DNA from: Tranzscheliella williamsii
Taxonomy: Eukaryota > Basidiomycota > Ustilaginomycetes > Ustilaginales > Ustilaginaceae
Length of the DNA stretch: 64,000 nt
Direction: 5' to 3'
NCBI GenBank assembly: GCA_023212725.1
Contig: JALBYF010000032.1
Coordinates: 124,001-188,000 of the forward strand
The position numbers and the translations under genes are program-made. This document shows, piece by piece, positions 18,221 through 46,259 of this stretch; position 1 is the first letter of the stretch; every line of letters begins with the position of its first letter. A model generated the notes under the pieces. That model saw nothing but the letters and a program-made list of their open reading frames with translations. It ran no database searches and was not told the DNA's origin.

Positions 18221-18232
18221 ATTCGCCGCCCC
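18221..18232. repeat. Target-site duplication of LINE A, distal copy
   Basis: ATTCGCCGCCCC, identical to 24506-24517. It directly follows the 3' end of LINE A (the element is on the minus strand). Its last five bases equal tRNA positions 1-5. Confidence 0.93.
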
Positions 18233-18343
18233 TGAAATGATTCTTATTGCTAAAAGATGGGATTCTAGATACAAGCACGGGCCCAAGCCAGAGTACGCCC
18301 TGCATGGCTATAGTCTGGCCGGTCCGATTGTGAGCGTCATGAA

Positions 18344-21300
18344 CTAGTCAAACGCACGCATCATGGCAGAAACAGCGACCAGCACCTGAATGTCAGTAAA
18401 CGTGGCATGGTGGAACGGAGAATTAGCGAAAAGCCGCGCCATCATAGGAGTAGTCTGCTCTCGTAGGGTGAGCAGCTCAGGGATGACAAAGTCCTTGGCG
18501 GAGGACGGGACGAAGTCATGGCCCATCCGCTCTCGCGCCGTGTAGAGGGCTGTGAGGCTGACCATGTAGACAAGCTGGAGGCGCAACTTGTCGGTTTTGT
18601 CGCGGAGAAGGTCGAAAGATGTTTGCCAACCATGGATGTAATCGATGGTGGACTGCGCCGGAAGCTTGCTAATAGTGAGGGACGGGAGCCAAGCACATGC
18701 CACGTCCAGGCAATGCCGCCAGAAGTCGGCGAGATGGATGCAGGTGTAGATGGCGTGAGGCGTGGAGTCCCTCTCACCGCAGCTACATGTATAGGGCTGG
18801 CGATCAACATCGCGGATCAAGCGAAACCGATCATAGATAGCTTGGAGCCAGAGAGACTTTCCCTGGACATAGTCAATTTTGTGAACACGGCGCCATAAAG
18901 CCTTCCAAACGCCAGCAGCGTGCGCCTCCGTGGGGCTTTGCTGCCGAACCTCATCATAGAATAGAGGCCGAGTCAATCGGACATGCCGCGCATGAGCCCA
19001 CGCATAGGTCGCCTGAAGCGTGAGGTCGCCCAACCGCTGTCCAGCCAGCAAGAGATGCGACCAAGGGAGTTGAAGACGGTTGCGGGTGGCGCTAGGTATA
19101 ATTGGCCACAAAGGGCGAGCTGGGACGGGGCCAGATGGTGCCAGTCGCGGGAGGTCCCGGAGGCGTGCCGAAAGACCAGGCGGGAGAAGGGCGATGTATT
19201 CCTCCCACCGAGAAGAGAGCCACATGATGGTCGTGCGCACCGCCTGGACAGGCTCGACCCCAAAGATCTCAAGTCCAATCTTCTTGGGATACTGAATCTG
19301 CATATATGACGGGGGATCGCTAGCGGCGAGGCTGTAGTAGGAGGGGAAGCATAGATCGTGGCCATCAGTCCACAAAACATCAGCGAAGGAGAGGAAACCT
19401 TGCCGCCGTAGGTTCAGGATGTGCTGCCGGTGACGTTGCCAATTCTTGGCTGGCGGGAATTGGATGTCGTATGAGGGGTGGAACCATGGAAGGGCGGCGA
19501 TTTCCTCGAGAGAAAGGGCCGCCCAGTCGAGGTCTGGAGGAAGAGTAAGTTCTAGTTCATGAAAGATCTGGAGGATCGACGCCGGGTAGTGGTGGCACTG
19601 ATGAAGCCGGGCCGAGTCCCAGCGCATGGAATGGCGGGTGAGGACCATGGTCAGTGGAGCGCCGCACTCCCGTAACAGATATCCTTGGATGAGCGACGCG
19701 AGCAGAGAGCTGGGGGTGGATTGCTGCACCAATAGGGTGCATAGTTGGCAGGCGTTGCTAGCGACGCTCATTGTGCGCGGGTCCTGCAGACCAAATCCCC
19801 CATCTCCCTTGGGGCTGGTGAGTAGATCATACGGGAGCCATGGCCTGGCCTTGGCGCCGAATAGCCATGCGCTCATGAGTGCCTTGACAGAGGTAAAGAA
19901 GTGGTCCGGCGGCACCCCAACGGCGAGCGGGTGCCACAAGATCGATAACACCTGTTCATTCAGAAGATGGACTCGGCGGAGGATTTGAGCTTTACCATGG
20001 TGCGTGGTAAGAAGCCGGTGTCGGACGGATCGGAGGAGGGTGGTGGCTTGCTCCGCCGGGAACAGGTCAGACACATGGAAGTGGAAGCCCAGAAACTTCC
20101 ACTCGGTGGCGTCAGTGAGTTGTATTTGTTGCTGTGCTAAGCCATGGGACCAGGCGTCGCGATGGGAGGCGGAGCTGGGTGTGGCGCCGGGAGCTTGTAT
20201 AAGCCGGTAGGTTGTCGAGGGGTTGAGGCTGGCTCCGGTGGCACTGTCGAATTGTTGCCGGCGGACAGCGTAGCGTTCTAGCTGGCCCGCGTCCGTGAGG
20301 AAGACAACACTGTTGTCGGCATAGGAGACAGAGGAGAGGCGGTCGGGCGAGTCTTGCAAGCTGATACCAATACCATCCTGGGTGATGGCATCTAAGAAGG
20401 GCTGGTACGCAAGGAGGTAAAGGAGAGGTGAGGACGGCATGCCTTGTAAAACACCTCGTTGGATAGGGATGGGCTCCGTATGGGATGAGCCAATGTTGTA
20501 CGTCACATGGGGATGCCGATATACACCCTGGATGTAACGGATGAGGGGAAGCGGGAGGTCCTTGGCTTTCAGAACCGCCCAAATCCAGTCACGGTCAACC
20601 TTATCGAAGGCTTTCTGCTGATCCTGGTCGACCAGGAGCACTGTAGGAGTTGGGGCGAGGCCGAGGGCGACAAGTGAAATGGTAAGCTGAAGAGAGATGG
20701 CCGCCGCGATGATAGACCGTCCGGCGATGAAACCGGTCTGAGAGGCTGGAGTGACCTCGTCGACGGCAGGGAGGAGACGGCGTTGAAGAACGGTGTCCAT
20801 AATACGCAGGTCGGAGTCGATAACCGAGAGGGGCCGATAGTTAGCAGGGTTGTCCCGAGCACCCTTGCCTTTGTAAAGAAGCGATCCAGCCGCAACCGGA
20901 TGTAGATATGGAAGGGTGCGGCCGGCACGAAGCGCGTTGGCGAGGGTGCACATAACCTGGGCAACACTCTCGCTGTTGCTGGACCAGAATACATGTGGGA
21001 GGCCATTGACCCCAGGAGCAGATCGGTTTGTCTCGGCTTTAAGCAGTGCGGTCTGGAACTCCTCCATGGTGAAGGGCCGTGCTATCAGCGCCTTAGTGGT
21101 GGCGTGGATGCGGGTGGGGGATGTCGACAAGAGCTGGCGGCGCTGGTCAACAGCGTCAGGAGGCAGGTCGCGTGCCGCAAAGAGGCCTGTATAAAAATCC
21201 GTAGTAGCGGCGGTCGTCAAGGCTGCAGTTGGGCGGTATGCCGCGGAATGTAGAGCAGTCGAAAGTATATTCTTGCCAGCAAGTCGCAGCTGGAGCTCAC

Positions 21301-22390
21301 ATTGGCGAACCTGGCGTCGGAGGTGCAAATAGGTGTCGATGTTGGACGGGATGCTGAAGTCCCACATGCCGATTTGGGTACGAAGCTGTCGGATGGTTTG
21401 GTGCATCTGGAGGAACTGCAGCCGAAGCTTGTAGCCAGTTCTGTTAGCGAAGTTGCGGCACCGTTCAATCCATTGAATGTACGCATCCGTCACCCTAATT
21501 CCCCGCTCACGGTGCAGGACTGAAACCCTGACCTGTTGGAGAAAGGTGTGGGCGAGCTGTACGAAAGGTTCATAACGGGCCATCGGTTGGGGAAGCCGCC
21601 ACCGGAAGAGGGTAGCGTCGGTGTCAAGTTGACCGGTGCCACCAAGTTGCAGGGAGAGGATGACGGGTGAGTGGTCCGAGGAGAGGCTTTGGAGCATGTC
21701 CATTGCATGGCAGCGGTGAAGGAGGTTGGCGGTAACAAGGAAAAAGTCGATGCGTGATGCCGACGCAATGGTGCCATCGTGATGAAGTTGGACCCGAGAG
21801 AAGGATGAGACCTCGTCATACAAGACCCGGAACGGGTCGAAGAGGTGGTGGTGTAGAATCTGGGGTTCTAAGAGAGGCCATTGGTGCGCGCGGTCGTCCC
21901 TGCCATGAAGAAAGTCCTCCTGAGAGGGTGCATCGTTCCAGTCGCCGGCAAGGATAGCTGGGTGTGGACCAATCCAAGTCGCCAAGCAAACTGACCCAAA
22001 GAAGTCTCGCCGTGCCATGTGCTCCACCGGAGCATAGACGGAGGCAAGCGAAAAGGTTGTCTGGCGATACACAGCAGTGCCGATGACCACCCTTCCCGCG
22101 TCAGTGTGGTGCAAGGCCGTCAAGGTGACCTCGGGGTTGAGGACCAAAATGGCGCTGAAAGGGGTGGCGTAGGCCATCTGAACATGGCGACGAATGGCAG
22201 GGGGTGCAAGCTGCGCAAATAGAAGCGTCGGGTCAAAGGTCGTAAAGCGCGAGCGCAGGGCGGCAAAACACGTCTCCTGAAGTAAAACAATGTCGACACC
22301 TTTGGTGATCACCTCCCAATCGCTCGTTTTGGTGACCGGGGAGGTGTTGACACCGTTGCAGTTCCAACTGATGATTTGAAGTGTCGGCAT
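18344..22390 (-). CDS. LINE A ORF2: APE endonuclease-reverse transcriptase
   Basis: 1348 residues. The start is taken at 22390 (MPTLQIISWNCNG) because it aligns with the start of LINE B ORF2; the frame is open a further 67 codons upstream but begins with TTG. The APE-type endonuclease lies at residues 1-~240: N10 (WNCNG), E39 (LLQET), GDWN at 149-152, SRIDFFLV, and SDH at 238-240. The reverse transcriptase follows: YRPLSVIDSDLR, LLVDQDQQKAFDKVD, QRGVLQGMPSSPLLY, and the active-site box at 690-693 is YADN where YADD is usual. A Cys/His cluster near 1202-1218 (CSCGERDSTPHAIYTC) is the LINE C-terminal zinc motif. There is no RNase H. It nicks the target and reverse-transcribes the element RNA there (target-primed reverse transcription). 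Confidence 0.95.
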   Translation of the reverse strand: MPTLQIISWNCNGVNTSPVTKTSDWEVITKGVDIVLLQETCFAALRSRFTTFDPTLLFAQLAPPAIRRHVQMAYATPFSAILVLNPEVTLTALHHTDAGRVVIGTAVYRQTTFSLASVYAPVEHMARRDFFGSVCLATWIGPHPAILAGDWNDAPSQEDFLHGRDDRAHQWPLLEPQILHHHLFDPFRVLYDEVSSFSRVQLHHDGTIASASRIDFFLVTANLLHRCHAMDMLQSLSSDHSPVILSLQLGGTGQLDTDATLFRWRLPQPMARYEPFVQLAHTFLQQVRVSVLHRERGIRVTDAYIQWIERCRNFANRTGYKLRLQFLQMHQTIRQLRTQIGMWDFSIPSNIDTYLHLRRQVRQCELQLRLAGKNILSTALHSAAYRPTAALTTAATTDFYTGLFAARDLPPDAVDQRRQLLSTSPTRIHATTKALIARPFTMEEFQTALLKAETNRSAPGVNGLPHVFWSSNSESVAQVMCTLANALRAGRTLPYLHPVAAGSLLYKGKGARDNPANYRPLSVIDSDLRIMDTVLQRRLLPAVDEVTPASQTGFIAGRSIIAAAISLQLTISLVALGLAPTPTVLLVDQDQQKAFDKVDRDWIWAVLKAKDLPLPLIRYIQGVYRHPHVTYNIGSSHTEPIPIQRGVLQGMPSSPLLYLLAYQPFLDAITQDGIGISLQDSPDRLSSVSYADNSVVFLTDAGQLERYAVRRQQFDSATGASLNPSTTYRLIQAPGATPSSASHRDAWSHGLAQQQIQLTDATEWKFLGFHFHVSDLFPAEQATTLLRSVRHRLLTTHHGKAQILRRVHLLNEQVLSILWHPLAVGVPPDHFFTSVKALMSAWLFGAKARPWLPYDLLTSPKGDGGFGLQDPRTMSVASNACQLCTLLVQQSTPSSLLASLIQGYLLRECGAPLTMVLTRHSMRWDSARLHQCHHYPASILQIFHELELTLPPDLDWAALSLEEIAALPWFHPSYDIQFPPAKNWQRHRQHILNLRRQGFLSFADVLWTDGHDLCFPSYYSLAASDPPSYMQIQYPKKIGLEIFGVEPVQAVRTTIMWLSSRWEEYIALLPPGLSARLRDLPRLAPSGPVPARPLWPIIPSATRNRLQLPWSHLLLAGQRLGDLTLQATYAWAHARHVRLTRPLFYDEVRQQSPTEAHAAGVWKALWRRVHKIDYVQGKSLWLQAIYDRFRLIRDVDRQPYTCSCGERDSTPHAIYTCIHLADFWRHCLDVACAWLPSLTISKLPAQSTIDYIHGWQTSFDLLRDKTDKLRLQLVYMVSLTALYTARERMGHDFVPSSAKDFVIPELLTLREQTTPMMARLFANSPFHHATFTDIQVLVAVSAMMRAFD

Positions 22391-22429
22391 GGCCAGGTAG
22401 CGATGCCAGTATGGTCGACAGCAGAAGGG

Positions 22430-22470
22430 GAAAAGGAGGGTGGGACGGGGGGGGGTGGGGGGGGAGAGGG
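22430..22470 (-). other. C-rich tract between ORF1 and ORF2 of LINE A
   Basis: Long G runs on the plus strand (C runs in the element sense) lie ~50-80 nt before the ORF2 start. LINE B has a comparable C run at about 42028-42046 in the same place. A role in internal ORF2 translation is possible but unproven. Confidence 0.5.
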
Positions 22471-22597
22471 AGAAAAGGGAGCGCATACTTAGGGGAGACG
22501 GGTGGGGACTCGGTGGATTCAGACCGTTGTATCCACATGAAAGGGGGGAGGGAGCAAAGTGGGGTGAGGCGAGGCACCAAAGCCACAACAACAGCGA

Positions 22598-23662
22598 TCA
22601 GTAATTGAGGTTCATATCATCCAGGTCAGTCAGAGGTCGTTTGGCCGGTCTAGCTGTCGCCTCCTCGGTGAGGTCCTGGAAACCCTCCCGAAGAAGGTCA
22701 GCGTCCCGGTGCTGTTTCTCACCACTCGCATCGGCTCTGGCTTTAGGGCAAGAACGTCGCGGGTGTCCAGGGTCGTGACAGTAACTGCAGAGGCGGGCGG
22801 AGCAGTTCTTGTACGTGTGCCTGTCACGGAAGTCGACACGGTTCTTGCAATGCATGCAGTGATCAAATCGAGCCGCGTACACCATCTTGTATTCACGGCC
22901 GCCGTATACCGCCCATCCCGGAAGGGTAGAAGCTACGTCAGTAACGTGGCTGAGGCCTAAGCGGGCACCTTCCTCCATCGAGAGCTCAACTAGAAGGTAC
23001 ATGTCACAATTCCAAGCCAGCGCGGTGCTCCCATCAGCTCGCTTCGGAGATTGTTCGTATGTAGTCCAAAAGTCAAGGATCTGATGAGGGAAGAAGTCCA
23101 TATTCAGCTTCTCAGCGAAGGGCCGCGGGTCTGACTTGATACTGGGCGCAAGGTCCACAACCCGAATCGTGATCCAGTTTGGTTTGAGGGCCGATGCGGT
23201 ACCAATGAAGACCAGAGGTTTGTCGTCGATGGCCAACGGTGTAGTCGAATCAAAGCGTTGCTGAAGCGGCCACTCCACGTCCATAAGGGTCTGCTTGTTC
23301 TTCTTGAAGAAGAGGATGCCACCATCTTTGTAGGCGGGGTAATGTTGTCGGAGCTGGTCCATGACCTGGAAGCAAGCATTAGTCCTGGCGACCTTGCCCT
23401 GTATGTTCACGGAGGGCGGGACCCCAAAGCGGGCCGTGCCTGGATCAATCTGGGCGGCAAAGCTCTTCCGGTCGATTTGGTGCGGTGGCAGTTCGTGGAA
23501 AGGGATGAGGGGCAGCTTTTCTTCTCCGGGCCGCAGGTTGTCGCCCTGGATGCGATAAGCGAGGTCCAGCCAAACCGGTTTCTCGGTCGTGAGCTGAGGT
23601 ACCGGAAGAGAAGCAGCTGGCGCAGTAGCAGCATCGTGCTTGGAGGAGTGGCCTTGACTCAT
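22598..23662 (-). CDS. LINE A ORF1: CCHC zinc-knuckle protein
   Basis: 354 residues, ATG at 23662. The N-terminal half has LPLIPFHELPPHQ, FAAQIDPGTARFGVPP and GGILFFKKNKQTLMDVEW, all shared with LINE B ORF1. In the middle FFPHQILDFWTTYE and LPGWAVYGGREYKMVY are conserved. The C-terminus has a Cys/His-rich part, HCMHCKNRVDFRDRH, followed by ARLCSYCHDPGHPRRSCPK, a CCHC knuckle (C-x2-C-x4-H-x4-C). Such ORF1 proteins bind the element RNA and form the ribonucleoprotein needed for retrotransposition. The length equals that of LINE B ORF1 although the sequences differ at many positions. It precedes ORF2 by 207 nt. Confidence 0.92.
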   Translation of the reverse strand: MSQGHSSKHDAATAPAASLPVPQLTTEKPVWLDLAYRIQGDNLRPGEEKLPLIPFHELPPHQIDRKSFAAQIDPGTARFGVPPSVNIQGKVARTNACFQVMDQLRQHYPAYKDGGILFFKKNKQTLMDVEWPLQQRFDSTTPLAIDDKPLVFIGTASALKPNWITIRVVDLAPSIKSDPRPFAEKLNMDFFPHQILDFWTTYEQSPKRADGSTALAWNCDMYLLVELSMEEGARLGLSHVTDVASTLPGWAVYGGREYKMVYAARFDHCMHCKNRVDFRDRHTYKNCSARLCSYCHDPGHPRRSCPKARADASGEKQHRDADLLREGFQDLTEEATARPAKRPLTDLDDMNLNY

Positions 23663-24505
23663 CGTTAGTACAGATAATCACGCAGAAAGGTGGTGGTGTA
23701 GAGAGACGCGGTCGCATAGACACGAATGACGGGTGTTGGTGCCGCAGCGGAGGTGGCTTTGAATCACGGGCAGGTGGTCAGCCACAAATGAGCTCGTGGG
23801 CCAGAACCACACGAACCCACCTGACGTGGCACCTTGCAACCAAGGGTGGGGCTAGACTGAGAGAGTGTATCGAGGGGGGGCGGCAGAGCACGGCAAAGTC
23901 CCGGTATTCAGGTGAGGGGAGGGGAAGAGGGCTTAGGAGGTCTGGGGGTGCCTCTAACCTGTAGGGCATGAGATGCCCATCCTGCTGAATCCCCTCCCGC
24001 GATGGGTATCTGAGACTATCCCATCGCAATGTCTTGAGCTGGGTGAACCCTCCCTTGACGATGGGGTCGTCACCGAGTACAACGCATCCTCAGGCAAACA
24101 GAAGGTAGTGCCGGTAAGAGGCAAGCGTACCGCCGGCCGAACTTGAGCACGAACTTCAGGCGGTCGCCCGGGCGGTCGAGCGGCCAATGGACCCGGGAAA
24201 GGTGGTTGGAAACAGGCAAAGCCTCCGACAGAGCGCATGGTACGGTCGGAGCTGTGACAAGATGGGTGCCAGCATGGCCAATGGGGACGCTCCCCGTGCT
24301 GCCGTCATGATCCAAAGGTCGGTCTATTCCTCGCCAGTCGAGACGAGACGTGCGCTGATCCCAATACAGGGGTACAGCAGGTTGGTGAACGTCTCCATGC
24401 TGGCATCGGAGGGGAACCACCTGGATGACCTCCAGTGCTCAGCCGTTGCCGTCGTCGTCATCGACGCCGTCCGATACTGGCGATTTGGTCGTCATCATCA
24501 GTGTA

Positions 24506-24517
24506 ATTCGCCGCCCC
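24506..24517. repeat. Target-site duplication of LINE A, tRNA-proximal copy
   Basis: ATTCGCCGCCCC, identical to 18221-18232. Bases 24513-24517 are positions 1-5 of the tRNA-Thr gene; 24506-24512 are its 7-nt leader. Confidence 0.93.
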
Positions 24518-24584
24518 CTTAGCTCAGTGGTAGAGCGTGTCACTAGTAATGACAAGGTCAGTCGTTCAAGTCGGCTAGGAGGCA
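24513..24584 (+). tRNA. tRNA-Thr (anticodon AGU), locus A
   Basis: 72-nt cloverleaf. The D arm is GCTCAGTGGTAGAGC. The anticodon arm is TGTCA/CTAGTAA/TGACA with anticodon AGT. The T arm is AGTCG/TTCAAGT/CGGCT, and the discriminator is A. The A box (TTAGCTCAGTGGT) and B box (CGTTCAAGTC) are present. The acceptor stem GCCCCCT/AGGAGGC has one C4-A69 mismatch where locus B has T4-A69. The run of eight T at 24592-24599 is a Pol III terminator, so the gene may be expressed. LINE A begins 8 bp upstream, head-to-head. The mismatch leaves open whether this copy still makes good tRNA. Confidence 0.9.
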
Positions 24585-25043
24585 AACAGTATTTTTTTTC
24601 TTCCTCTTTGCTGACAGGTGATTGGTAGCGGGATGCGCAGTGCGAGGGCTGAAAATAGAAATGGACAGTTGCAGCGGTAAAGGGGGGGCAAAAGGACGCG
24701 TCTTTGGGGAGGCTAGGGCGCGAATAGAGACACAGAAAATGGCCGGCCGGAGCGGTAGGCGGAGTGGGGCAGGCGTATCGGTGTCGCGGGGTGCAGCTAG
24801 CGGGCGGCAAGCGCGGCAGGGGTGCGGGATGGCCAAGTCGTGCACGGCGGAGCTCCCGTGCTGGCGTGGTGCTGGGGAGCTGGGCGCTCGGGCCGTGAGC
24901 CGGCTAGTGCGGGTGCAGCTGCCCTAGCACGGCTCCCCGTCTCATACTGCCTACGGCGCAGCGCGCCAGCACAGCCGCATAGGCACACAGATCAGCACGC
25001 CAAAGGAAGTCTTTCGTGGTATTTACACTGGCGCCGCCTGCGC
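24585..25043. other. Spacer between tRNA-Thr A and GLC3
   Basis: About 460 bp. Apart from the Pol III T-run I see nothing specific; it must contain the 3' end of the branching-enzyme transcript, which arrives from the right. Confidence 0.4.
24592..24599 (+). terminator. Pol III terminator of tRNA-Thr locus A
   Basis: Eight T residues 8 nt after the tRNA 3' end. Confidence 0.8.
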
Positions 25044-27110
25044 TCAACCGACGCGGTGCAGGACCAGGGCGCTGCGGCTGGGCAAATAGAGCTGAACAAA
25101 GTTGCGGCGGCCGTTCCACTCCATGGCGGTGGTGAAGTACTCGGTGGCGTGGTCGACGCGGCCGTGGCCGCCGAGGTCGGTGGCATCGGTGTCGAGCAGG
25201 ACGCGGTACTTGCCCGGCTCGTCGACGCCGATGCGGTAGTCGGTGAACGAGTTGGTGGCGTGGAAGTTAAAGACAAAGAGCAGGCCGGCGCGCTCGAACG
25301 CAACCACGCGGTCCGTGTCGTGCTTGAGCGAGATGTACGCCTGCGGCGCGGCCAGCCACCGCCCCACCTCCTCGGCGCGGTTCATCGCCGCGTCAAACGC
25401 GTACAGATACCGGTAGCGAAGCAGCGGATCGTCGACCAGGTTGAACTGCCGCCGCGCGTAGTGGAACGAGTCGCCGTTGCCGGCGCGCGGAAAGTCGAGC
25501 CACTCGGGATGGCCAAACTCGTTGCCGATAAAATTGAGGTATCCTTCGCCGCCTAGCGCGTGCGTGATGAGCCGGATCATCTTGTGGAACGCCAGACCGC
25601 GGTCGATCACCTGGGTGCGCTCCGAGAGGTCCGACATGTTGGTGTACATCTCCTTGTCCATCAGCCAGAAGGCGATCGTTTTGTCGCCCACCAGCGCCTG
25701 GTCGTGCGACTCGGCATAGGCGATCGACTTTTCCATGTGCCGCCGATTAGTCAGTGTAAAGCAGATGCTGCCAAAGTCCCACTCCTCGTCCGGTTTTTCC
25801 TTTAGCAGCTTGATCCACATGTCTGGCACCGCCATCGAAAGCCGATAGTCGAAGCCGACCCCGCCCTCGGCAACAGGCCGGCAGAGCGCGGGCATGCCCG
25901 AAACATCCTCGGCGATGGTGATGGCCTTTGGGTTGATATCGTGGATCAACTTGTTCGCCAGCATCAGGTAGCACACCGCCTCTACATCGACAGACGGACC
26001 AAAGTACTCGTGATATCCGCCGCTAAAGCCTGTACCGATGCCGTGGTGTGTATACAGCATAGAGGTGACGCCGTCGAAGCGGAAACCATCAAAGCCATAC
26101 TCTTCCATCCAGAATAGACAGTTGCTGAGCAGGAAGCGCAAGACCTCGTGACTGCCATAGTTGAAGAGCCTCGAGTCCCACAATTCGTGCCGCCCCTTGG
26201 CCCCCTCGTGGAAGTAGAGATGGTCGGTGCCGTCAAACATGTTGAGGCCGTCGAGGACATTCTTGCAGGCGTGCGAGTGGACGATGTCGAGAAGAACAGT
26301 GATGCCCATGGAGTGGGCGACGTCGATCAGCTCCTTGAGATCTTCAGGATTACCGTATCGACTGCTGGCGGCAAAGAAATTGGTGACCTGGTAGCCAAAG
26401 GAGGCGTAATAGGCGTGTTCCTGGATGGCCATCAGCTGAATGGTGTTGTAGCCCAGCTCGCGGATCCGGGGCAGGACATTCTGGGTGAATTCCTTGAATT
26501 GGCCGACGCGAGGCTCTGGGGTTGCGATGCCGACATGGGCTTCGTACACCTTGATGTTGTCCGGCTGCGGGGGCTTGGCATGCTTGAACGTGTATCGCTG
26601 CGATGCAGGAGGATTCCAGAACCTTGCGTCGTACACCGGTGAGACGTTCAGATCCTGGGTGACGCGGAGGATCCAGGCAGGTAGCCTCTCGATCCTCTCG
26701 CCGGATGGCAACACGAAAGAGATCTTGACCTTAGAGTCGTGGGGGATGGCGCACTTGCCCGCGACAGGAGGGATGGTGATGTGCCACTTGCCGAAGTTGT
26801 CCTTCTGCATTTTGTGAGACTCCCGATTCCAGCCGTTGAATTCGCCGATGAGCGAAGCTTCGACGGGATTGGGCGCCCATTCGGTGTAGGTGACGGTCTG
26901 GTCCTTGGGATCGATCTGGAAGCCCATATGTTGAAATGAGCGGGCAAACTTCTGGAGCCCGCCTTCGGTAGTTTCAATCTGCTTGAGCCATCGCGTGTAG
27001 AGGGAATACCTGTCGCGAAGCGCCGGTGCAAAGGGCTCCAGCCACGGATCGAGGGCGATGACGCCGGTGCCGTCACTGGCCTGCGAGTAGTCGGTCGAGG
27101 CGGCAGCCAT
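25044..27110 (-). CDS. GLC3: 1,4-alpha-glucan branching enzyme
   Basis: 688 residues, ATG at 27110, no intron. The N-terminal CBM48-like part shows [20 protein letters not shown]. The GH13 catalytic barrel (subfamily 8) shows [36 protein letters not shown] (nucleophile Asp), [11 protein letters not shown] (acid/base Glu) and [14 protein letters not shown] (third catalytic Asp). [22 protein letters not shown] is a hallmark of eukaryotic branching enzymes, and the C-terminal beta domain follows. It transfers alpha-1,4 glucan chains to alpha-1,6 positions during cytosolic glycogen synthesis. Length and motifs are complete, so the enzyme should be active. Confidence 0.97.
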
Positions 27111-36275: not shown

Positions 36276-36865
36276 GGCTTGGCAGTTCCAATTTGCAAGA
36301 GCCAAGTGGATGCGGTCGGAGGGGATACAGGGCCGGCAGAGGGAGAAAGAGCGATTGATATCACCGTGTCCTTATCATTCTTTTCAATGTTGACCCAGAG
36401 CCGCTGAAGTGCGTTGACTGCGTAGATGCGAGCAGCTCAACTCCTGCCACTTGATCAGAGCATGCCTGCAGGGCGGAGCGACGTCAGGCCAGAGGTGGTG
36501 ATGCCGTACAAGATACCTGCTGGTGGTCACAGAGTCTTCAATATAGCTGCATCGAAGAGCAATAGTTGCAGTGTGGGATGTCTGCATCTGCCGTGCCGGC
36601 CAATCTTAGCCACCCCGATCCTGCAGACACCAAGTTTAACACATCGGGATGTGTCTTCACTACCGAGATCCGGAGACAGGACTCACACCAGAAAGCGAGA
36701 ATTGTACCAAAATGGGGAAATTTTTTGGCGAACGGCTGAATGGATTGGGAAAAGAAGGGTAAGTTCGTACATGCTGTTCGCGATAAGCTCCGTTCTGTGC
36801 CTCTCGCTTTCGCTCCTTCCTAGCTGTCAACCTCGGAAGCCTCTCGCTGCTCCGAGACATATACA
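36276..36865. other. Divergent promoter (WDR59-like / PXR1)
   Basis: 590 bp between two divergent starts, so the region is a shared promoter. I see no specific motif. Confidence 0.5.
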
Positions 36866-38269: not shown

Positions 38270-38652
38270 CAAGCATGGTCGCCATTACGGTATTACCCCC
38301 GCTAGCCTGGCGTCCGTACGCCAACCTCTGCCTCGCCCGGACGTCATCCCTCGCATTGCATTTTTATCTTCCTCTAGCGTACATACCAACGCAGCATACC
38401 TCTATCGCAGAATACTACTTATCTATCCAAGGATCAGGACTCAGCAGTGAAGAGTGCCTTTCAGCAGTGATGGCGGAGTGGATTTACCCACTGGCGACTT
38501 AACAGGCAGCGATGAAGTTGCGAGTAGATATGTGGAGGTAGCGTATCTGAGGACTGTGACTGTGACTTGAGCCGTCGGACGCTTCTTGCTTATGGCCATC
38601 GCTCATCGTCTTCTCGCCGACTCGAGGTGTGCGCGCGAATTGTGGATCGACA
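38270..38652. other. Intergenic PXR1 3' side / small membrane protein promoter
   Basis: 383 bp. Nothing specific is seen. Confidence 0.4.
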
Positions 38653-39246
38653 ATGCCGGCGCGAGAAGAGCCAGTGGCTAACCACGGAGGTGGTGTGTCT
38701 CCGGAGGGTAGGGGGGTGGCGGCAACACCGCGGGTGATGCTTGGACGGAATGCAGGGAAGCTGGATGAGGCGGAGCATCCTGCGCTGCCGATTGCAGAGG
38801 TAGGTGGGGCGAACCGGGCTGCACAGGTGCGCGGGATCCTGTTTGGGCTCGGGGGTGGCGTTGTGTCTGGTAAGTGGATGCGGCGAGCAGTGCTGGCCGG
38901 CCGGGGCTGACGTGTTTCGCGCCGTACGGCAGCCTTTATCTCGCGGCGTGCGCTGGGCTTGGGCAAGAATGCGAGCTACCTGTCGGGGCTATTGGCAGGC
39001 ACTGGCGTCGCGTACATCACGGCGCGCCAGCAGCTCGAACGCAACCTCGCCCACGTCGAGGCCGCTGAAAAACGCCTCCGCTCCCCCCTCCCACCCCGCC
39101 CCCTCGTCCCCGCTCAGGACAACACCACGGACCTCGACATGCTCAAGTACGACCTCCGCGCTGCCGAAAACTCCCACCACGAAGCCGGCGTCGCCGGCCT
39201 GCACGATTTGCAGGACATGTACGCCTCCACGCGCGGCGACCACTGA
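38653..39246 (+). CDS. Small membrane-associated protein of unknown function
   Basis: Two exons, 38653-38869 and 38933-39246, giving 176 residues. A 63-nt intron (GTAAGT...GGCAG) joins GILFGLGGGVVS to AFISRRALGLGKNASYLSGL, producing two glycine-rich hydrophobic segments (about residues 60-77 and 85-110) that look like a membrane hairpin. The C-terminal half is charged and probably helical (ARQQLERNLAHVEAAEKRLR, DMLKYDLRAAENSHHEAGV). The first ATG is at 38653; an earlier in-frame GTG is not used. I do not recognise the family. A mitochondrial or ER membrane place is a guess from the hydrophobic segments. Confidence 0.7.
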
Positions 39247-39662
39247 CTCCAACACGCAGCCGTCCTCCGCTCCGCGCACTTCAAACACTCGCCATCGCTG
39301 CCATCAGTCCGCTGCCCTCACCAGCGATCCGCCTGCTCGGCTGTATAGAGCTGTACATCCTGTCCAGTACATCACTACCCTTGCAAGACAGCAGTCCTCA
39401 CCAAGCCAAGCAAAAACCGCGTGACGCTCCTCCCACATAATTATTGTTGCGGCAATGCAAATCTCAAGATAATCAGTCGAAATGGAATCCGGAAATTCAC
39501 ATCCTGGAAAGAATTGCCGCCCCCACCAGCCCGGCGAGAATTCCGAGCAGATTCAAACACGAAAACCCCAAAAACGAAGGAACCGCTCGAGTAGAAAAAG
39601 TTTGCTCACGACGAAGCGGCAAAAGGTTCTCGCCGAGAGGTGGTGATCCGGGCAGCAGTAGA
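39247..39662. other. Spacer between small membrane gene and tRNA-Thr B
   Basis: About 415 bp. In tRNA orientation a T4 run at about 39618 and a T5 run at about 39597 are the nearest possible Pol III terminators. No other signal is seen. Confidence 0.5.
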
Positions 39663-39734
39663 TGCCTCCTAGCCGATTTGAACGACTGACCTTGTCATTA
39701 CTAGTGACACGCTCTACCACTGAGCTAAGGAGGC
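39663..39734 (-). tRNA. tRNA-Thr (anticodon AGU), locus B
   Basis: 72 nt, perfect cloverleaf: acceptor GCCTCCT/AGGAGGC, D arm GCTCAGTGGTAGAGC, anticodon arm TGTCA/CTAGTAA/TGACA (anticodon AGT), T arm AGTCG/TTCAAAT/CGGCT, discriminator A. It differs from locus A at only two positions (4 and 59), but the 3' flanks are unrelated, so these are two loci of one tRNA family. A box TTAGCTCAGTGGT and B box CGTTCAAATC are intact. LINE B begins 6 bp upstream of the tRNA 5' end, head-to-head. Confidence 0.95.
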
Positions 39735-39740
39735 TCGATG
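39730..39740. repeat. Target-site duplication of LINE B, tRNA-proximal copy
   Basis: GAGGCTCGATG; the first five bases are the complement of tRNA positions 1-5. The partner GAGGCCACGATG at 46248-46259 differs by a one-base gap and a substitution, as expected for an older insertion. Confidence 0.75.
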
Positions 39741-40730
39741 AAGGATGGTGGCGACCACCTGCTGTCAGAATCTCAGCGTCGTGGAAGCTGTCCTCTCCAA
39801 CATCAGTCATACGTTCAGGCTGGGGACGTGTCAGAACCTGCTGTACCCTGCCCGGTGCGGGATCAGCCCACAGTCTTGCCCAGAAGGGCAAGGAGTATGC
39901 TCTTGGTTACAACGACGACGACTGGAAGAAGGCGCTTTCCCAATGCGAACAGGCGAAGCGTCGACCATCCAGCGCCGATACCCTCCTTGCTGACACCACT
40001 GTTTCTGGACATTGCGGTGTGGACCTATATCGATTTGGTGCGATCAACTTCTTGACAGGCTACAAAGACCTGCGTTGACATGTTTTTGCCGCCCCAACCA
40101 ACTACAATGGTCTTGACCTGTGAAGCACCCACCACTGCTTCCATCCTTGTGATGCTCCCGCTCTCCCCCAGCAGGGCGAGATCCTGGCTTGAGATGGCAT
40201 ATCAGCTTCCCGGCTGATAAACATTGCCATGATAACGAGGCGATCGCTGCGGCAATCATCCACGCCGTTGCTACATGCGACCTGACCGTTCTACTGTCGA
40301 TGCATCGTATGTTCAAACCGTGTGGGTCTTCTTCGTCGGAGAAAGACCCTATGCCAAACCCGTCTGTATGTCTACACCCAAGAGGAGCGTACCGTTCTGG
40401 CAGGGGATTCCGAGGGGAGGAAAAAAGAACCAACCCCCCCGCCACGCAACCCCCTTAGGTACCCCAAATTTCTGGCCAACCCACGAAGAGGCCCAAGCCC
40501 AAACCCCCCCCCCCCTATCCAACGGTGTGCCTCCCCCTTTCCACCTCTTAAGTCTCCTGTGCCAGCGCAGCCTGCGACAAGCCAGCGCACGCACCCTCCG
40601 GACAGCTCATTGCCCCATACCAGTCATGGGGAGCGCCAACCCAAATCTGGACTGTCCCGACCGTCTCCAACACCAGCTCGAACTCTTGCAACCACACCCA
40701 CACAGTCCAAAACACCCCTTCCTCCTCAAT

Positions 40731-41795
40731 ATGCCCAACGACCACCCGCCCCCTGTTGATGATGTGAACCTGGCCCAGGCGAAGAGTCTTCTACATACGA
40801 CGGAGATATCAACCTGGCTGCCAGTGGCCCATCGTCTGCAAAGGGATGACTCGAGTCAGGGCCCCCTTATCCCGTTCGCTGAACTTCCCCCTCACCAACT
40901 ACAACATAACTCCTTTGCTGCTAAGATTGAACCTGGTACGGTGAGATACGCAATCCCCCCCACACTAAAAATACAAACCCAGAGCGAGAAAGCCAGTGCT
41001 GGCTACACCATCATCTTACAACTCCAAGCTCGCTACCATGACTATGAGACCGGTGCTGTCCACTTCTTTAAGAAGAATAAGCAGACACTTGTAGATATAG
41101 AATGGACGGCGAAGAGCGAGTTTGACCCCTCTACGCCACTGAAGCTTGACGAGACTAACCTTGTCTTTGTAAACATGGCCTCCGCTATCAAACCCAACTG
41201 GCGTACTGTCAAGATCAGCGGCCTCCCAGCCGCAGTACGTACCAACCCGGGTCTAATGGCTGAGCGAGCCAATATGATACTCTACCCACATCAGATCCTC
41301 GACTTCTGGACCACATACACCCGCTTCACCCACCAAGACGCCAGTCCCGTCGACTTCTGGAACGAAAACCTTTACATGCTTGTGGAACTCGACCTGTCGG
41401 CAGGAGACAGCTTTGGCTATAACCACCCCGCCGAGGTTGCCTCTATGCTCCCGGGATGGATAGCCTACGGCTCCACTGAATACCGCCTCGACTACCTTGA
41501 CAGGTTCGACCACTGCATGCACTGCAAAGCAAACGTCAGTTTTGAAGACCGTCACAAATACCAGGCTTGCACTGCGAGACTTTGCAGCTACTGCAACAAA
41601 GCTGGACATCCCCGCCGCTCATGCCCCGCCCTGAAAAAGGACAAGGCAGACAAGACCGCCACACTTGCCGCCGATGAAGACCTGGTACAAGGCTTCAATG
41701 ACCTTGCTCGGGAAGTCTCATCCCGCCCTGCCAAACGCCAGCACGTCGACGACGTTGAAGACACCATGCGCGACGCTGGCCTTCAGTATAACTGA
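40731..41795 (+). CDS. LINE B ORF1: CCHC zinc-knuckle protein
   Basis: 354 residues from the ATG at 40731; the open frame extends further 5' (to 40275), but this start gives exactly the length of LINE A ORF1 and the extension is C-rich and unlike coding sequence. Shared blocks are GPLIPFAELPPHQ, FAAKIEPGTVRYAIPP, VHFFKKNKQTLVDIEW, YPHQILDFWTTYTR and LPGWIAYGSTEYRLDY. The C-terminal HCMHCKANVSFEDRH and ARLCSYCNKAGHPRRSCP form the Cys/His region with a CCHC knuckle. It should coat the element RNA. A 292-nt spacer with a long C run separates it from ORF2. Confidence 0.92.
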   Translation: MPNDHPPPVDDVNLAQAKSLLHTTEISTWLPVAHRLQRDDSSQGPLIPFAELPPHQLQHNSFAAKIEPGTVRYAIPPTLKIQTQSEKASAGYTIILQLQARYHDYETGAVHFFKKNKQTLVDIEWTAKSEFDPSTPLKLDETNLVFVNMASAIKPNWRTVKISGLPAAVRTNPGLMAERANMILYPHQILDFWTTYTRFTHQDASPVDFWNENLYMLVELDLSAGDSFGYNHPAEVASMLPGWIAYGSTEYRLDYLDRFDHCMHCKANVSFEDRHKYQACTARLCSYCNKAGHPRRSCPALKKDKADKTATLAADEDLVQGFNDLAREVSSRPAKRQHVDDVEDTMRDAGLQYN

Positions 41796-42027
41796 AAGTC
41801 CACCCACCACCACCGTACCCTGCCAAAGTTTCTCCCCAGCTCCTTCACCTGTCTGAACGTCAAATCGCTACTATACACTGTTTACGCCCACCCTCCTCCC
41901 TTGATTGCGAATGTCTGTGCCTCTCTGTTGACCACAAAGACTAACGCATACGGTCCGTGCATCTACAGTGACCAAAAGACCTTGAGCCCCCCCCTGCCCC
42001 GTCCAGCCTAATGACACCAACCCCCAC

Positions 42028-42046
42028 TCCCCCCCCCCCCCCCCCT
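42028..42046 (+). other. C-rich tract between ORF1 and ORF2 of LINE B
   Basis: A run of C residues lies about 45 nt before the ORF2 ATG; the counterpart in LINE A is at 22430-22470. Another C run lies upstream of ORF1 (about 40506-40516). Confidence 0.6.
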
Positions 42047-42087
42047 CCGCTCCACTGGCTTCCTCCACCACCCCATGCCCCAGCCCC

Positions 42088-45000
42088 ATGTCCTCCACGT
42101 TACGAATCGTCAGCTGGAATTGTGGGGGCATCAATGTGGCACCAACTACTAAGACTCGCGACTGGGACGTCATCACCCATAACTGTGATATCGTACTACT
42201 CCAAGAGCCTTGCTTCAACTCCCTCCGGCGTCGATATGAATCCTACGACCCCACCCTCCTCTTATCACAAATAGCCCCCGAAGCCATCATTAATCAAGTC
42301 CGCTTCGCTTACACTTCACCCTATAGCGCCATCCTATCCCTGAACCCTCAGATCCAGGTCACACATGCTAATGTCACACCTGACGGCCGGATCGTGACTG
42401 CTACCGCCCGCATTGCCGACGAAGACTTCCAACTCACCTCCATCTATGCACCCTCCGACCACATGGCACGCAAGCTCTTCTTTGAAGAGCTCAACCTCAG
42501 ACCATACACTACGGCAGTCAATGCCATCTTAGGCGGCGACTGGAATGACGCCCCATCTCAACACGACTTCTATCATGGCAGAGACGGCCGTGCTCACCTT
42601 TGGCCCATCCTCGAACCCCAAATCACCTCTACCAACGTCTTCGATCCCCAACATCTGCTCCTTGGCGACACCCGCACATACACACGGGTTCTCCTGGACA
42701 ATGATGGCGACATTTGCACTGCCAGCCGAATTGACTTCTTCCTCACCAGCGCCCGCCTCCTCCATCGATGCAGATCGGTCATCCTGGTCCAGAGTCTCAC
42801 GTCTGACCACTCCGCAGTACAGCTCCAAGTTAGTTTAACCGACCACCCTCCGACAACCGCTGAGGGCCCCATTCGTCGCTGGCGCCTCCCCCAACCCATT
42901 GCACGCTTTGAACCCTTCAGGGCCTCAACATCTCAATACCTCGACCATAGCATCCACACGGTCCTCCAGCCACCTCCTTTCGTCAAGGTCTCCACGGCCT
43001 ACGCCAGCTGGATTGAGCGATGCCGGAACTTTGCACACCTTAACGGGTACAAACTACGGGCCCGCTTCCTCCAGGCCCACCTCCTGCTCCGCCAACACCG
43101 TGCAAAGCTTGGCAGCTGGGACTTCCACGCAAACCCTGATGTCAGCGGCTACCTTCAACTCCGGAAAGAAGTTGAACAGCTCCAGTCTCAACTCAACCTC
43201 ACCGGCCTCAACATACGGCCCACCACTCTACACACCGCCGCCTATGACCAGACGGAACACCTCGACATCTCCAACACCACCACGTTCTTCACCAACCTCT
43301 TTGCTCAACGCCCCTTCGAGCCCTCCCACCACACTGCCGCCCTCTCCCTTCTCGAAGTCTCGCCACAACGCTTGTCCGACGTTACAAGCAACAGACTAAA
43401 CCGACCCTTCACCGCCGATGAGTTCCTTCCCATCCTGACAAAAGCTAAGTCCATGCGCTCAGCACCAGGCCCAAATGGCCTTCCCCACGCATTCTGGACC
43501 AGCAACGCCTCTGCCAGCTCTAAAGCCTTCAGCAGACTGGCCAATTCACTTCGCTCCGGTAGACCCCTGCCAGGACACCAACCCATCGCCGCGGGAACGC
43601 TTCTATACAAAAACAAAGGCAGTAAAGCCGACCCGGCGAACTACCGTCCCCTTTCCATCATCGACGCTGACCTCCGCCTACAAGATCTCGCCGTCCACGG
43701 ACGGCTTATGGAGGGCATCAAAGAGATAACACCCACGTCCCAGTCAGGCTTCATTGCCAACCGCTCAATCTTCACAGCAGCCATCACTCTACAAATCGCA
43801 GTGTCGGCCGTCAACCTCAGCCTTACGGAGACAGATGAAATCCTGATTATTGACCAAGACCAGCAGAAGGCCTTCGACAAGATCGACAGGTCATGGTTAT
43901 GGACAGTCCTCAAATTTCGTGGCTACCCTCTCTCCATCATCCGATACCTCCAGAACCTCTACAAACATGCACACGTCGTGTACACTATTGGCTCAGAGTA
44001 TACCGACCACATTCCCATCAATCAAGGGGTTCTGCAAGGCATGCCGTCTTCTCCCTTACTCTACCTGCTTGCATATCAACCCTTTCTGGATGCCTTATCT
44101 CATGACAACATTGGTATACGGCTGCGAGACACCACGGAAAACCTTACATCCGCATCATATGCCGACAACACCATTATCACTCTCGCATACACGGACGACA
44201 TCAATCTCTACACCGCCCGCCGCCACCAGTTCGACACAGCCGCTGGCGCCAACCTAAACCCATCTACAACCTACCGTCTCCTCCGGCCACCCCATCATGA
44301 CAACACTCAGACCCCTCTCTCTCAAGCCTGGAGCAACACCCTAGCAGAACACGACATGCGGTTAGACGATGCTAAGGAATGGAAATATCTTGGTGTATAC
44401 TACCACCGCTACGATCATGTACCCTCTGGTCTTTTCAACACCCTCCTTGACCAGCTGCGCGGGCGCTTGAGGAAAACCTCCCATTCTCGCAAGGACATCC
44501 TCACACGCGTCCGTATCCTCAACGAGATGGTCTTGTCGTGCCTGTGGCACCACACTACCATCAGTCTCCCACCACCCGATTTCCTACAGTCCCTGCGCAC
44601 GCTCACCAGCGGCTGGCTGTTTGGAACGTCTCGCCGCCCCTACATCCCGTATGACCTACTGTCGGGCCCCAAAGATTTGGGCGGTTATGGTTTTCAAGAC
44701 TGCTGGATCACCAGCCTAAGCCGCAATGCCCAGACGATTGGCGCGATGCTCTGCGACCCAGAGACCCCACACCAATCTCTAGTAGAGCTCCTCCGTGGCT
44801 ATCTTTTGCAGACGACATCCACTCCTATCACCACCTTGGTCACACGACACGGCATGCCATGGGACCAAGCCCGCAACAACAAGGAGCACCGCTTTCCGTC
44901 ATCTGTGCTCCAAGTCTTCCATGAGCTCAACCTCAACATCCCAGTAGACTTAGACTGGGACGCACTAAGCCTCTCTGAAGTCGCATCGCTCCCTTGGTTC

Positions 45001-46161
45001 CATGAATCCTATCAGATCGCCTTCCCTCCCAATGATCGCCGCTGGAACCGTATAAATCAACACATCCTAAACCTCCGCCGACAGGGCTTCGTCTCATTTG
45101 CAGACATCCTCTGGACGGATGGCACCGACCTCCGCCTCCCCACATATCTACACCTCGCAGAATCGGATCAACCTGAGTATATGTCAATCCAATACCCAGC
45201 TGGCTTCAGTCGCACACTGACCGGAACAGCCCAAGTACAAGCCAACCGCACAACCTACGCCTGGATCTCGGCGCGCTGGCAACACTACATGCCGCTGCTC
45301 CCCACGGGTCTTCAAACACGCATTCTCCAGCTGCCCGCCCTAGCCCCTATCGCCCCAGAAACAAGCACGACGGTCGACATGTGGCCCATCCTGACTGGCG
45401 ATCAACGCGCCTCGCTCCCTCTCCCATGGTCACACCTCACGTTAGCAGGTCAGCTCCTCGGATCTTTAGATCTCAGGAGAACATACATGTGGCACTATAC
45501 CAACATCTCCAGGAAAACCACCCCGATGTTCCACGATGAGATCAACAACAATAGCGATACCCTCTTTGGTGTTGACCCTACATCATTCTGGACAACGTTA
45601 TGGAAGCGGGTTCACCGGATCAACCACAGTTCAGGAAAATCAATATGGTTAACGGCAATTTTTGATCGCACACGCCGCCTCAGAAATGACGATGCTAGCA
45701 TCTATAGGTGTCACCACTGCGCCTGCCTTGACGATACTGTCCACACTTTCATCACTTGCCCCAACCTCCGCGACTATTGGCACAACGTCCTTGCTCTGGC
45801 ACAAGCTTGGATACCGACTCTCTCGGATGACATGCTCCCACCCTACACGGCAATTGAATTCATCCATGGGTGGCCCACCACTTATGCTTCCCTGCATCGG
45901 CGTGACAAGCCACGCCTCCAACTTCTGTTCCTCCTCGCCATCACAGCCATCACAACATGTCGGCAAGAGAAACAATGTCGGTACTCACCCCATGATGCAC
46001 TGCCATTCTTCAAAGCGGAACTCCTACTGGCCACTACTACAACATATAGCAAGATATTCGTCAACTCCAACCTTGCCAACTTGGACGCTGACAGCTTGGA
46101 CGCCATTTTACGAGGTGCTGAAATCCTCCGCCACACCAGAGGCTTCCACGACGGTGTATAG
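42088..46161 (+). CDS. LINE B ORF2: APE endonuclease-reverse transcriptase
   Basis: 1357 residues, ATG at 42088 (MSSTLRIVSWNCGG). The APE-type endonuclease shows WNCGG, LLQEPCF, GGDWNDAPSQHDF, SRIDFFLT and LTSDHSAV. The RT shows YRPLSIIDADLRL, LIIDQDQQKAFDKID and NQGVLQGMPSSPLLY, and the active-site box at residues 691-694 is YADN, as in LINE A. The C-terminal zinc motif is CHHCACLDDTVHTFITC. There is no RNase H domain. The frame is undamaged, although the flanking duplication has decayed, suggesting selection on the element before or since insertion, or an older copy by chance still open. Confidence 0.95.
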   Translation: MSSTLRIVSWNCGGINVAPTTKTRDWDVITHNCDIVLLQEPCFNSLRRRYESYDPTLLLSQIAPEAIINQVRFAYTSPYSAILSLNPQIQVTHANVTPDGRIVTATARIADEDFQLTSIYAPSDHMARKLFFEELNLRPYTTAVNAILGGDWNDAPSQHDFYHGRDGRAHLWPILEPQITSTNVFDPQHLLLGDTRTYTRVLLDNDGDICTASRIDFFLTSARLLHRCRSVILVQSLTSDHSAVQLQVSLTDHPPTTAEGPIRRWRLPQPIARFEPFRASTSQYLDHSIHTVLQPPPFVKVSTAYASWIERCRNFAHLNGYKLRARFLQAHLLLRQHRAKLGSWDFHANPDVSGYLQLRKEVEQLQSQLNLTGLNIRPTTLHTAAYDQTEHLDISNTTTFFTNLFAQRPFEPSHHTAALSLLEVSPQRLSDVTSNRLNRPFTADEFLPILTKAKSMRSAPGPNGLPHAFWTSNASASSKAFSRLANSLRSGRPLPGHQPIAAGTLLYKNKGSKADPANYRPLSIIDADLRLQDLAVHGRLMEGIKEITPTSQSGFIANRSIFTAAITLQIAVSAVNLSLTETDEILIIDQDQQKAFDKIDRSWLWTVLKFRGYPLSIIRYLQNLYKHAHVVYTIGSEYTDHIPINQGVLQGMPSSPLLYLLAYQPFLDALSHDNIGIRLRDTTENLTSASYADNTIITLAYTDDINLYTARRHQFDTAAGANLNPSTTYRLLRPPHHDNTQTPLSQAWSNTLAEHDMRLDDAKEWKYLGVYYHRYDHVPSGLFNTLLDQLRGRLRKTSHSRKDILTRVRILNEMVLSCLWHHTTISLPPPDFLQSLRTLTSGWLFGTSRRPYIPYDLLSGPKDLGGYGFQDCWITSLSRNAQTIGAMLCDPETPHQSLVELLRGYLLQTTSTPITTLVTRHGMPWDQARNNKEHRFPSSVLQVFHELNLNIPVDLDWDALSLSEVASLPWFHESYQIAFPPNDRRWNRINQHILNLRRQGFVSFADILWTDGTDLRLPTYLHLAESDQPEYMSIQYPAGFSRTLTGTAQVQANRTTYAWISARWQHYMPLLPTGLQTRILQLPALAPIAPETSTTVDMWPILTGDQRASLPLPWSHLTLAGQLLGSLDLRRTYMWHYTNISRKTTPMFHDEINNNSDTLFGVDPTSFWTTLWKRVHRINHSSGKSIWLTAIFDRTRRLRNDDASIYRCHHCACLDDTVHTFITCPNLRDYWHNVLALAQAWIPTLSDDMLPPYTAIEFIHGWPTTYASLHRRDKPRLQLLFLLAITAITTCRQEKQCRYSPHDALPFFKAELLLATTTTYSKIFVNSNLANLDADSLDAILRGAEILRHTRGFHDGV

Positions 46162-46247
46162 CTATGCCACAGCGTACACTGACGTGCAAACCACCCCCCA
46201 AACACATGTATAGACACATACACCACTTTGCAATACAAATCAATTTA

Positions 46248-46259
46248 GAGGCCACGATG
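46248..46259. repeat. Target-site duplication of LINE B, distal copy
   Basis: GAGGCCACGATG directly after the LINE B 3' end, matching 39730-39740 imperfectly. It begins with GAGGC, the complement of tRNA-Thr positions 1-5. Confidence 0.75.

Follow-up and report, generated by a model that had tools for sequence, protein, structure and literature searches.

What places two diverged long interspersed nuclear elements (LINEs) at the start of two genes for the same tRNA? The question is raised by a 64,000-nucleotide (nt) stretch of the genome of the fungus Tranzscheliella williamsii (assembly GCA_023212725.1, contig JALBYF010000032.1, positions 124,001-188,000; hereafter the window), in which LINE A (18233..24505, minus strand) and LINE B (39741..46247, plus strand) each stand head-to-head with one tRNA-Thr(AGU) gene (24513..24584, plus strand, and 39663..39734, minus strand, respectively). 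This arrangement agrees with an earlier reading of the window, which we call the original prediction. Searching the whole genome (18.18 Mb in 135 contigs; our evidence base is this one genome and few copies), we find that a LINE lineage inserting recurrently at tRNA 5' ends is real, and that its insertions are nucleotide-exact wherever the 3' junction is clean.

Both elements are full length and lack a poly(A) tail, and both are bordered by short repeats that take in the start of the tRNA gene. At LINE A, direct reading gives ATTCGCCGCCCC both next to the tRNA (24506-24517, seven leader nucleotides followed by tRNA nucleotides 1-5) and at the distal end (18221-18232), identical at 12/12 positions, with the final five letters being tRNA nucleotides 1-5. 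At LINE B, the proximal copy GAGGCTC-GATG (39730-39740, tRNA nucleotides 1-5 plus six of leader) aligns imperfectly with the distal GAGGCCACGATG (46248-46259), with 10 matches, one mismatch and one gap by manual count. The predicted inclusion of tRNA nucleotides 1-5 was thus exact for A, whereas the 11/12 claimed for B overstated the match. The 3' flanks of the two tRNA genes, said to be unrelated, do differ over the 15 nt compared. As a side observation, the acceptor stem of the tRNA gene at LINE A has a mismatch, C4-A69, and a further tRNA-Thr(AGU) gene, on contig C103, carries the compensated change T5-A68.

The open reading frames ORF1 and ORF2 are open in both LINEs. ORF1 of LINE A (22598..23662, minus strand) encodes 354 amino acids with zinc-knuckle-like Cys/His motifs towards the C end and has a single Pfam match, under that family's cut-off; that of LINE B (40275..41795, plus strand) is an open frame of 506 amino acids. 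ORF2 (A, 18344..22585, minus strand; B, 42088..46161, plus strand, 1,357 amino acids) contains an APE endonuclease (PF03372) and a reverse transcriptase (PF00078) in both elements, as expected of an APE-type non-long-terminal-repeat (non-LTR) retrotransposon. The Pfam library that detects RNase H in another LINE of this genome, on contig C58, found none in A or B, and no LTRs were seen at the ends of either element as read, although no repeat-tool search for them was made. The two ORF2 proteins are 48.6% identical over 1,349 amino acids, bearing out the earlier estimate of about half.

Insertions at the start of six tRNA genes

A pattern built from the 5' end of LINE A matched five places in the genome with at most three mismatches, namely A itself, D (contig C103), C1 and C2 (both C134) and E (C120), whereas the reversed pattern matched none; LINE B is too diverged for a match. 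Four of the five matches adjoin tRNA 5' ends and the fifth begins C2, a tandem copy. D adjoins a third tRNA-Thr(AGU) gene, C1 a tRNA-Thr(UGU) gene with an intron and E a tRNA-Arg(CCU) gene with an intron. A diverged copy, F, seen among 46 nuclear tRNA leaders, lies at an intron-bearing tRNA-Lys(CUU) gene on C86 and is cut by the contig end. Counting both genes in the window, six tRNA genes carry an insertion at their start, a recurrence that supports the overall interpretation of a tRNA-targeted LINE. The target had been given as tRNA-Thr(AGU); all three such genes found in the genome are indeed occupied, but the Thr(UGU), Arg(CCU) and Lys(CUU) genes are hit as well.

Every 5' end except that of C2 adjoins a tRNA. 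A, B, C1, D, E and F start at most about 12 nt from the tRNA 5' end, which their own 5' ends face, so that element and tRNA lie in opposite transcriptional orientation; the probability that a random point lands, correctly oriented, no more than 10 nt from any of 50 tRNA 5' ends is about 2.7e-5 per copy. We read the 3' junctions of A, B, C1, D and E (C2 and F supply none), and four of them are clean at tRNA nucleotides 5/6: ..CATTTCA|GGGGC in A, ..CAATTTA|GAGGC in B, ..CAATTAA|GGGGC in C1 and ..CAATTTT|GAGGC in E. Neither oligo(A) nor an A run is present at the 3' end of A, B or C1.

The tRNA-Thr(UGU) site was hit twice in tandem. The 3' end of C1 continues into GGGGCGGTGAATCACACTG, in which the target letters lead directly into the 5' end of C2 with no tRNA between them; C1 therefore inserted later than C2 and used the same nucleotide. 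The sequence of C2 stops near L015:4857. Close to the contig end, unrelated sequence, perhaps another mobile element, interrupts it (L015:4857-5407 on C134).

Genome searches with ORF2 and ORF1, in which the best candidates were scored, yielded no member of the A/B/C group beyond the C134 element and an 85-residue ORF2 relic on contig C45, too short for its 5' end to be judged; full-length copies at non-tRNA sites, which the original prediction had proposed to look for, were not found among these candidates. The 5' end is whole in all three copies found through ORF2 (A, B and C1). Relationships between copies are given here as pairwise identities: over its longest open piece, C1 ORF2 is 46.5% identical to A and 63.9% to B. 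Among proteins of other fungi, PSFLO_03970 of Pseudozyma flocculosa (38% to A over 1,345 amino acids) and, from Ustilago sp., UHOD_11946 (57% over 409) and UDID_17379 (54% over 503) belong by sequence to the same protein lineage as A and are known here as proteins alone; more distant relatives occur in Tilletia. The host itself looks like a member of the Ustilaginomycotina: a window-encoded host protein of 1,326 amino acids reaches at most 64-65% identity, across most of its length, among the best 120 of 439 database matches, of which the named ones are from smut fungi, Testicularia cyperi first, so that no species named there is a close relative.

The nearest cousin in this genome, a LINE on contig C102 (74500-81000) with open reading frames and about 36% amino-acid identity, does not sit at a tRNA 5' end, but a tRNA-Pro(CGG) gene of the same orientation begins roughly 60-135 bp downstream of its 3' side. 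The 3' end of this LINE can be read in two ways, with two 9-mer duplication candidates, about one being expected by chance by our estimate, and neither is convincing. An early impression that the C134 and C102 elements had no tRNA nearby was wrong, because ARAGORN in bacterial mode skips intron-containing tRNA genes. Manual stem reading also replaced its labels Ala(UGC) on C134 and Ser(CGA) on C120 by Thr(UGU) and Arg(CCU), each with an intron after nucleotide 37. Two further matches were left uncounted: a zinc-knuckle open frame resembling ORF1 at contig position C1:387822-388908, near which tblastn detected no reverse transcriptase as far as C1:392800, and a weak ORF1-like match on C87, with no tRNA in 1.5 kb upstream. 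The former lies about 0.47 kb upstream of a tRNA-Ala(UGC) gene (anticodon read manually) and may be a relic or a host gene.

Target choice

Occupancy follows the sequence of the tRNA 5' end. Insertions occupy five of the six tRNA genes with the 5' sequence GCCYYYTTRGCTCAGTGG, compared with 1/44 of the others (p 1.7e-5). These 50 nuclear genes comprise the 46 left after 16 of 62 tRNA matches, on contig C3, were excluded as probably mitochondrial, plus four added later (on C45, C102, C13 and C17). The pattern GCCYCYTTRGCTCAGTGGTAGAGCG occurs at 12 places in the genome with at most three mismatches, and the six of these with at most one are the occupied sites of A, B, C1, D and E and an empty tRNA-Thr(CGU) gene on C45. 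The motif GGTCGYCATCATC is matched at 12-13 of 13 positions in all six occupied leaders (12 in B) and at no more than 9 of 13 in the 44 unoccupied ones.

We consider the best explanation, with a probability of about 0.9, to be an old APE-type LINE lineage that inserts to the nucleotide, directed mainly by sequence, between tRNA nucleotides 5 and 6, together with non-coding partners; recognition of the sequence would be the simplest account of how targets are chosen. The ORF2 endonuclease would nick the sense strand of the tRNA gene between nucleotides 5 and 6 (GCCYC^YTTRGCTCAG, directly before the A box), and the freed 3' end would serve as primer for reverse transcribing the LINE RNA, starting at its 3' terminus, which has no tail (..AATCAATTTA in B). 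A cut of the other strand several nucleotides upstream would then yield a full-length LINE directed away from the tRNA, with tRNA nucleotides 1-5 and a few leader nucleotides duplicated and the tRNA gene thereby rebuilt. The shorter elements D and E use the same site.

The alternative that survives best holds that the LINE is tethered by bound RNA polymerase III (Pol III) factors, as described for TRE5-A and Ty3 (PMC5911963, PMC5006619), the exact site merely mirroring the position of the complex. The hit at the start of the unrelated tRNA-Lys(CUU) gene fits this idea. The contrast in occupancy would nevertheless be unexpected were any Pol III gene suitable, and the clean 3' junctions mark a single nucleotide rather than a window, so we regard tethering as an unlikely account of the pattern as a whole. 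Under sequence-directed insertion, the tRNA-Lys(CUU) case indicates some slack in targeting or some help from Pol III factors.

The shared 5' block and the non-coding elements

The first roughly 190 nt of LINE A, a 5' untranslated region (UTR) block at 24320..24512 on the minus strand, are 81-85% identical to C1, C2, D and E, and 85.5% identical to F over 69 nt; C1 and C2 are 74-76% identical to D and E. In an alignment of the block, E enters after its first 34 nt on account of an internal duplication, and the contig end truncates F. LINE B, though nearer to C1 in protein, shares with the group mainly a block of 57-64 nt (89%) and the GATGGTGGCGACCA start. Because the block is so alike while the ORF2 proteins of A and C1 are so diverged, it seems to have been exchanged between LINE families or to be under special conservation.

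Across seven related sequences, two helices proposed for the block show pairing in 97.4% of 78 cells, and 3 of 13 pairs have both partners changed; slid versions reach at most 59%. One of five shuffle measures does not favour structure (further pair types, 8 compared with 9.0 in shuffled sequences). Single-sequence folds of 5' UTR pieces were not clearly above shuffle stability (z of 0.18, 0.63 and -0.08 for C1, -1.75 for A and -0.05 for B), so that the case for structure is one of covariation; the LINE 5' end is apparently structured, a conclusion to which we give modest weight. We rejected a hepatitis delta virus-like ribozyme at the 5' end, Rfam giving no such match in A, B, C1, D, E or F (C2 was outside the run) and only sub-threshold hits, C/D-snoRNA-like and other weak ones.

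D, of about 0.97 kb, aligns with E, of about 0.8 kb, along most of both elements (74% across 605 nt, 83% across 104 nt). Each opens with the 5' block of the LINE and closes with LINE-like letters, and neither aligns to the coding part of LINE A. They look like non-autonomous, non-coding elements that the LINE would mobilise.

The likeness of the block raises the possibility that a cassette of tRNA and LINE 5' end spread by segmental duplication or gene conversion, the insertions then not being independent. In its favour, the block of A matches its counterparts in C1 and D at 81-84% identity (C1 against D, 74%) despite the divergence of A and C1 in ORF2. Copying of a cassette is hard to reconcile with the different host tRNA genes, three of which (Thr(UGU), Arg(CCU) and Lys(CUU)) have introns of their own, with C2 following C1 with no intervening tRNA, or with the repeat of tRNA nucleotides 1-5 at the distal ends of A, B, C1 and E (imperfect in D); we judge it very improbable. 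Random insertion with survival only in harmless places such as tRNA leaders is disfavoured to the point of dismissal, since survival, however much a genome of 18 Mb that seems compact from its ORF lists might favour it, cannot account for one position in six genes or for tandem re-insertion.

Displaced tRNA leaders

Many unoccupied nuclear tRNA leaders (43 in this survey, 44 in the occupancy and joined-flank tests) have an A/T-rich, TATA-like element at about -36 to -30 and an A at -25, and 29/44 exceed the 95% point of the background when each is omitted from the model in turn. The six occupied genes now have leaders that resemble background (p 0.18-0.97 when taken one by one, 0.95 for their mean). 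We joined the distal flanks to the tRNA genes, scored them against 35,310 background positions, and obtained p values of 0.060 for A, 0.029 for B and 0.015 for E, the mean of A, B, D and E giving p 0.002; C1, C2 and F, without a usable distal flank, were omitted. In a shift control the true phase ranked third of 121, shifts of -1 and -2 being slightly better. Since the joined flanks resemble tRNA leaders and the present leaders resemble background, the distal flanks of A, B, D and E are plausibly the original leaders, least clearly so in D. The contiguity of flank and tRNA gene, which had been put forward as a check, is supported by the mean and not by D taken singly.

Judged from these scores, insertion displaces a TATA-like leader, which makes the proposed safe haven at tRNA genes less simple than it had seemed. 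Where a TATA-like element exists at the three tRNA-Thr(AGU) genes, or at the Thr(UGU) and Arg(CCU) genes, of which one each was found, it is now on the far side of the insertion, and its former place is taken by the LINE 5' end. Upstream TATA boxes are described for tRNA genes of S. pombe, where insertion between box and start would very likely disrupt the promoter (PMC4600332, in the part available). In this fungus, an element lies between the place of the TATA box and the start in each of the three tRNA-Thr(AGU) genes found, and some of these genes must therefore still work; we infer that some occupied genes remain functional. They offer a case for studying how a tRNA gene survives a leader-displacing insertion of 1-6 kb. 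One tentative idea, which we think rather doubtful, is that the LINE took over the upstream promoter of a codon family, in which case threonine decoding would depend on a mobile-element leader. In the same speculative vein, the LINE 5' end might double as the promoter of the element itself and as a targeting module exchanged between half-identical LINE families.

Several observations weigh against nucleotide-exact, sequence-directed insertion. The 3' junction of D is imperfect (GAAGC, compared with AAGGC in its tRNA), the duplication of E is certain for 6 nt only, and the distal and proximal leader letters of B agree at 0/10 positions when ungapped. Although the distal letters beside the repeated tRNA nucleotides resemble the proximal leader (20/40 matches, p 0.0005, none contributed by B), they match the leaders of other copies about as well as their own, those of D matching A's and E's at 8/10; likeness equal across and within copies suggests homology to the 5' end of the LINE. 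Moreover, A, C1 and D have leaders that resemble each other and that end (GGYGAATYAC), and the 5' junction may thus be set by homology to the LINE, perhaps microhomology, rather than by duplication alone. The joined distal flank of D is by itself indistinct (p 0.42). As to targets, tRNA-Thr(CGU) carries the target sequence and is empty, tRNA-Lys(CUU) lacks it and was hit, and not all tRNA genes are listed, since 63 of 391 candidates from a first look were scored. The ORF2 relic on C45 (C45:242321-242949) lies about 0.28 kb upstream of the empty tRNA-Thr(CGU) gene, on the same strand as the tRNA, an orientation opposite to that of the insertions at occupied genes.

A second LINE lineage downstream of tRNA genes

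On contig C13 (C13:53405-60155), a LINE distantly related to the A/B/C group (about 26% amino-acid identity; about 24% for the C58 LINE), with a reverse transcriptase at residues 917-1177 of a long open frame, has a repeated 5' block that starts about 28 nt downstream of a tRNA-Val(CAC) gene. Beyond the A-rich 3' end of the LINE comes a further copy of this block (89%). The only further locus of the block, C17:15373-15619, lies about 27 nt after another tRNA gene, probably Pro by manual reading. These two loci are a strong lead to a distantly related LINE lineage that sits just downstream of tRNA genes; if true, one small genome would contain LINEs of two distantly related kinds, one on either side of tRNA genes, and the 5'/3' division known from Dictyostelium would have arisen a second time.

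Comparison with known tRNA-linked elements

Elements of the NeSL clade use a restriction-like endonuclease, whereas A and B carry an APE domain. In the available part of PMC4640811, NeSL-1_TV (tRNA-Pro), LIN15_SM (tRNA-Arg) and LIN25_SM (tRNA-Glu), related to that clade, are likewise LINEs specific for tRNA genes. Dewa of zebrafish is also a sequence-specific mobile element at tRNA units, targeting a tRNA-Leu spacer (PMC3706591, in the portion at hand). The fungal elements linked to tRNA genes in the passages available, such as Ty3 and Tj1, are of the LTR type with an integrase and not target-primed LINEs (PMC5911963, PMC4600332, PMC5006619). The accessible table of a review of Pol III targeting likewise takes its non-LTR examples from social amoebae and its fungal ones from LTR elements. 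The same division, with tRNA-linked LINEs in social amoebae, the NeSL-related elements and Dewa on one side and fungal LTR elements on the other, runs through the consulted sections of the wider literature (PMC5911963, PMC5006619, PMC4640811, PMC3706591, PMC4600332, PMC7175516, PMC5014426). Among the papers listed by searches of an open-licence library, no title or abstract opening reports a fungal LINE with a tRNA 5'-end habit.

The closest likenesses are in Dictyostelium. TRE5 of D. discoideum is likewise an APE-type LINE upstream of tRNA genes in opposite orientation; it falls, however, in a window 40-54 bp upstream, outside which all six copies adjoining tRNA genes here start, is linked to the Pol III complex and has an oligo(A) 3' end, whereas the fungal LINE has an exact site inside the gene and no A tail (PMC5911963, PMC5006619, as far as available). 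NLTR-A of D. purpureum, an element of a social amoeba and not a fungus, inserts 2-6 bp upstream, close to the spacing of A, B and C1, yet their 3' junction takes in tRNA nucleotides 1-5; the available text of PMC5006619 describes no cut inside the tRNA gene and gives NLTR-A an RNase H after the reverse transcriptase, a domain not found in A or B. The lineage described here works like NLTR-A, TRE5 and the tRNA-specific NeSL elements while departing from each in some of the defining features tested, and it adds to them a fungal APE-type LINE lineage that acts to the nucleotide at tRNA genes.

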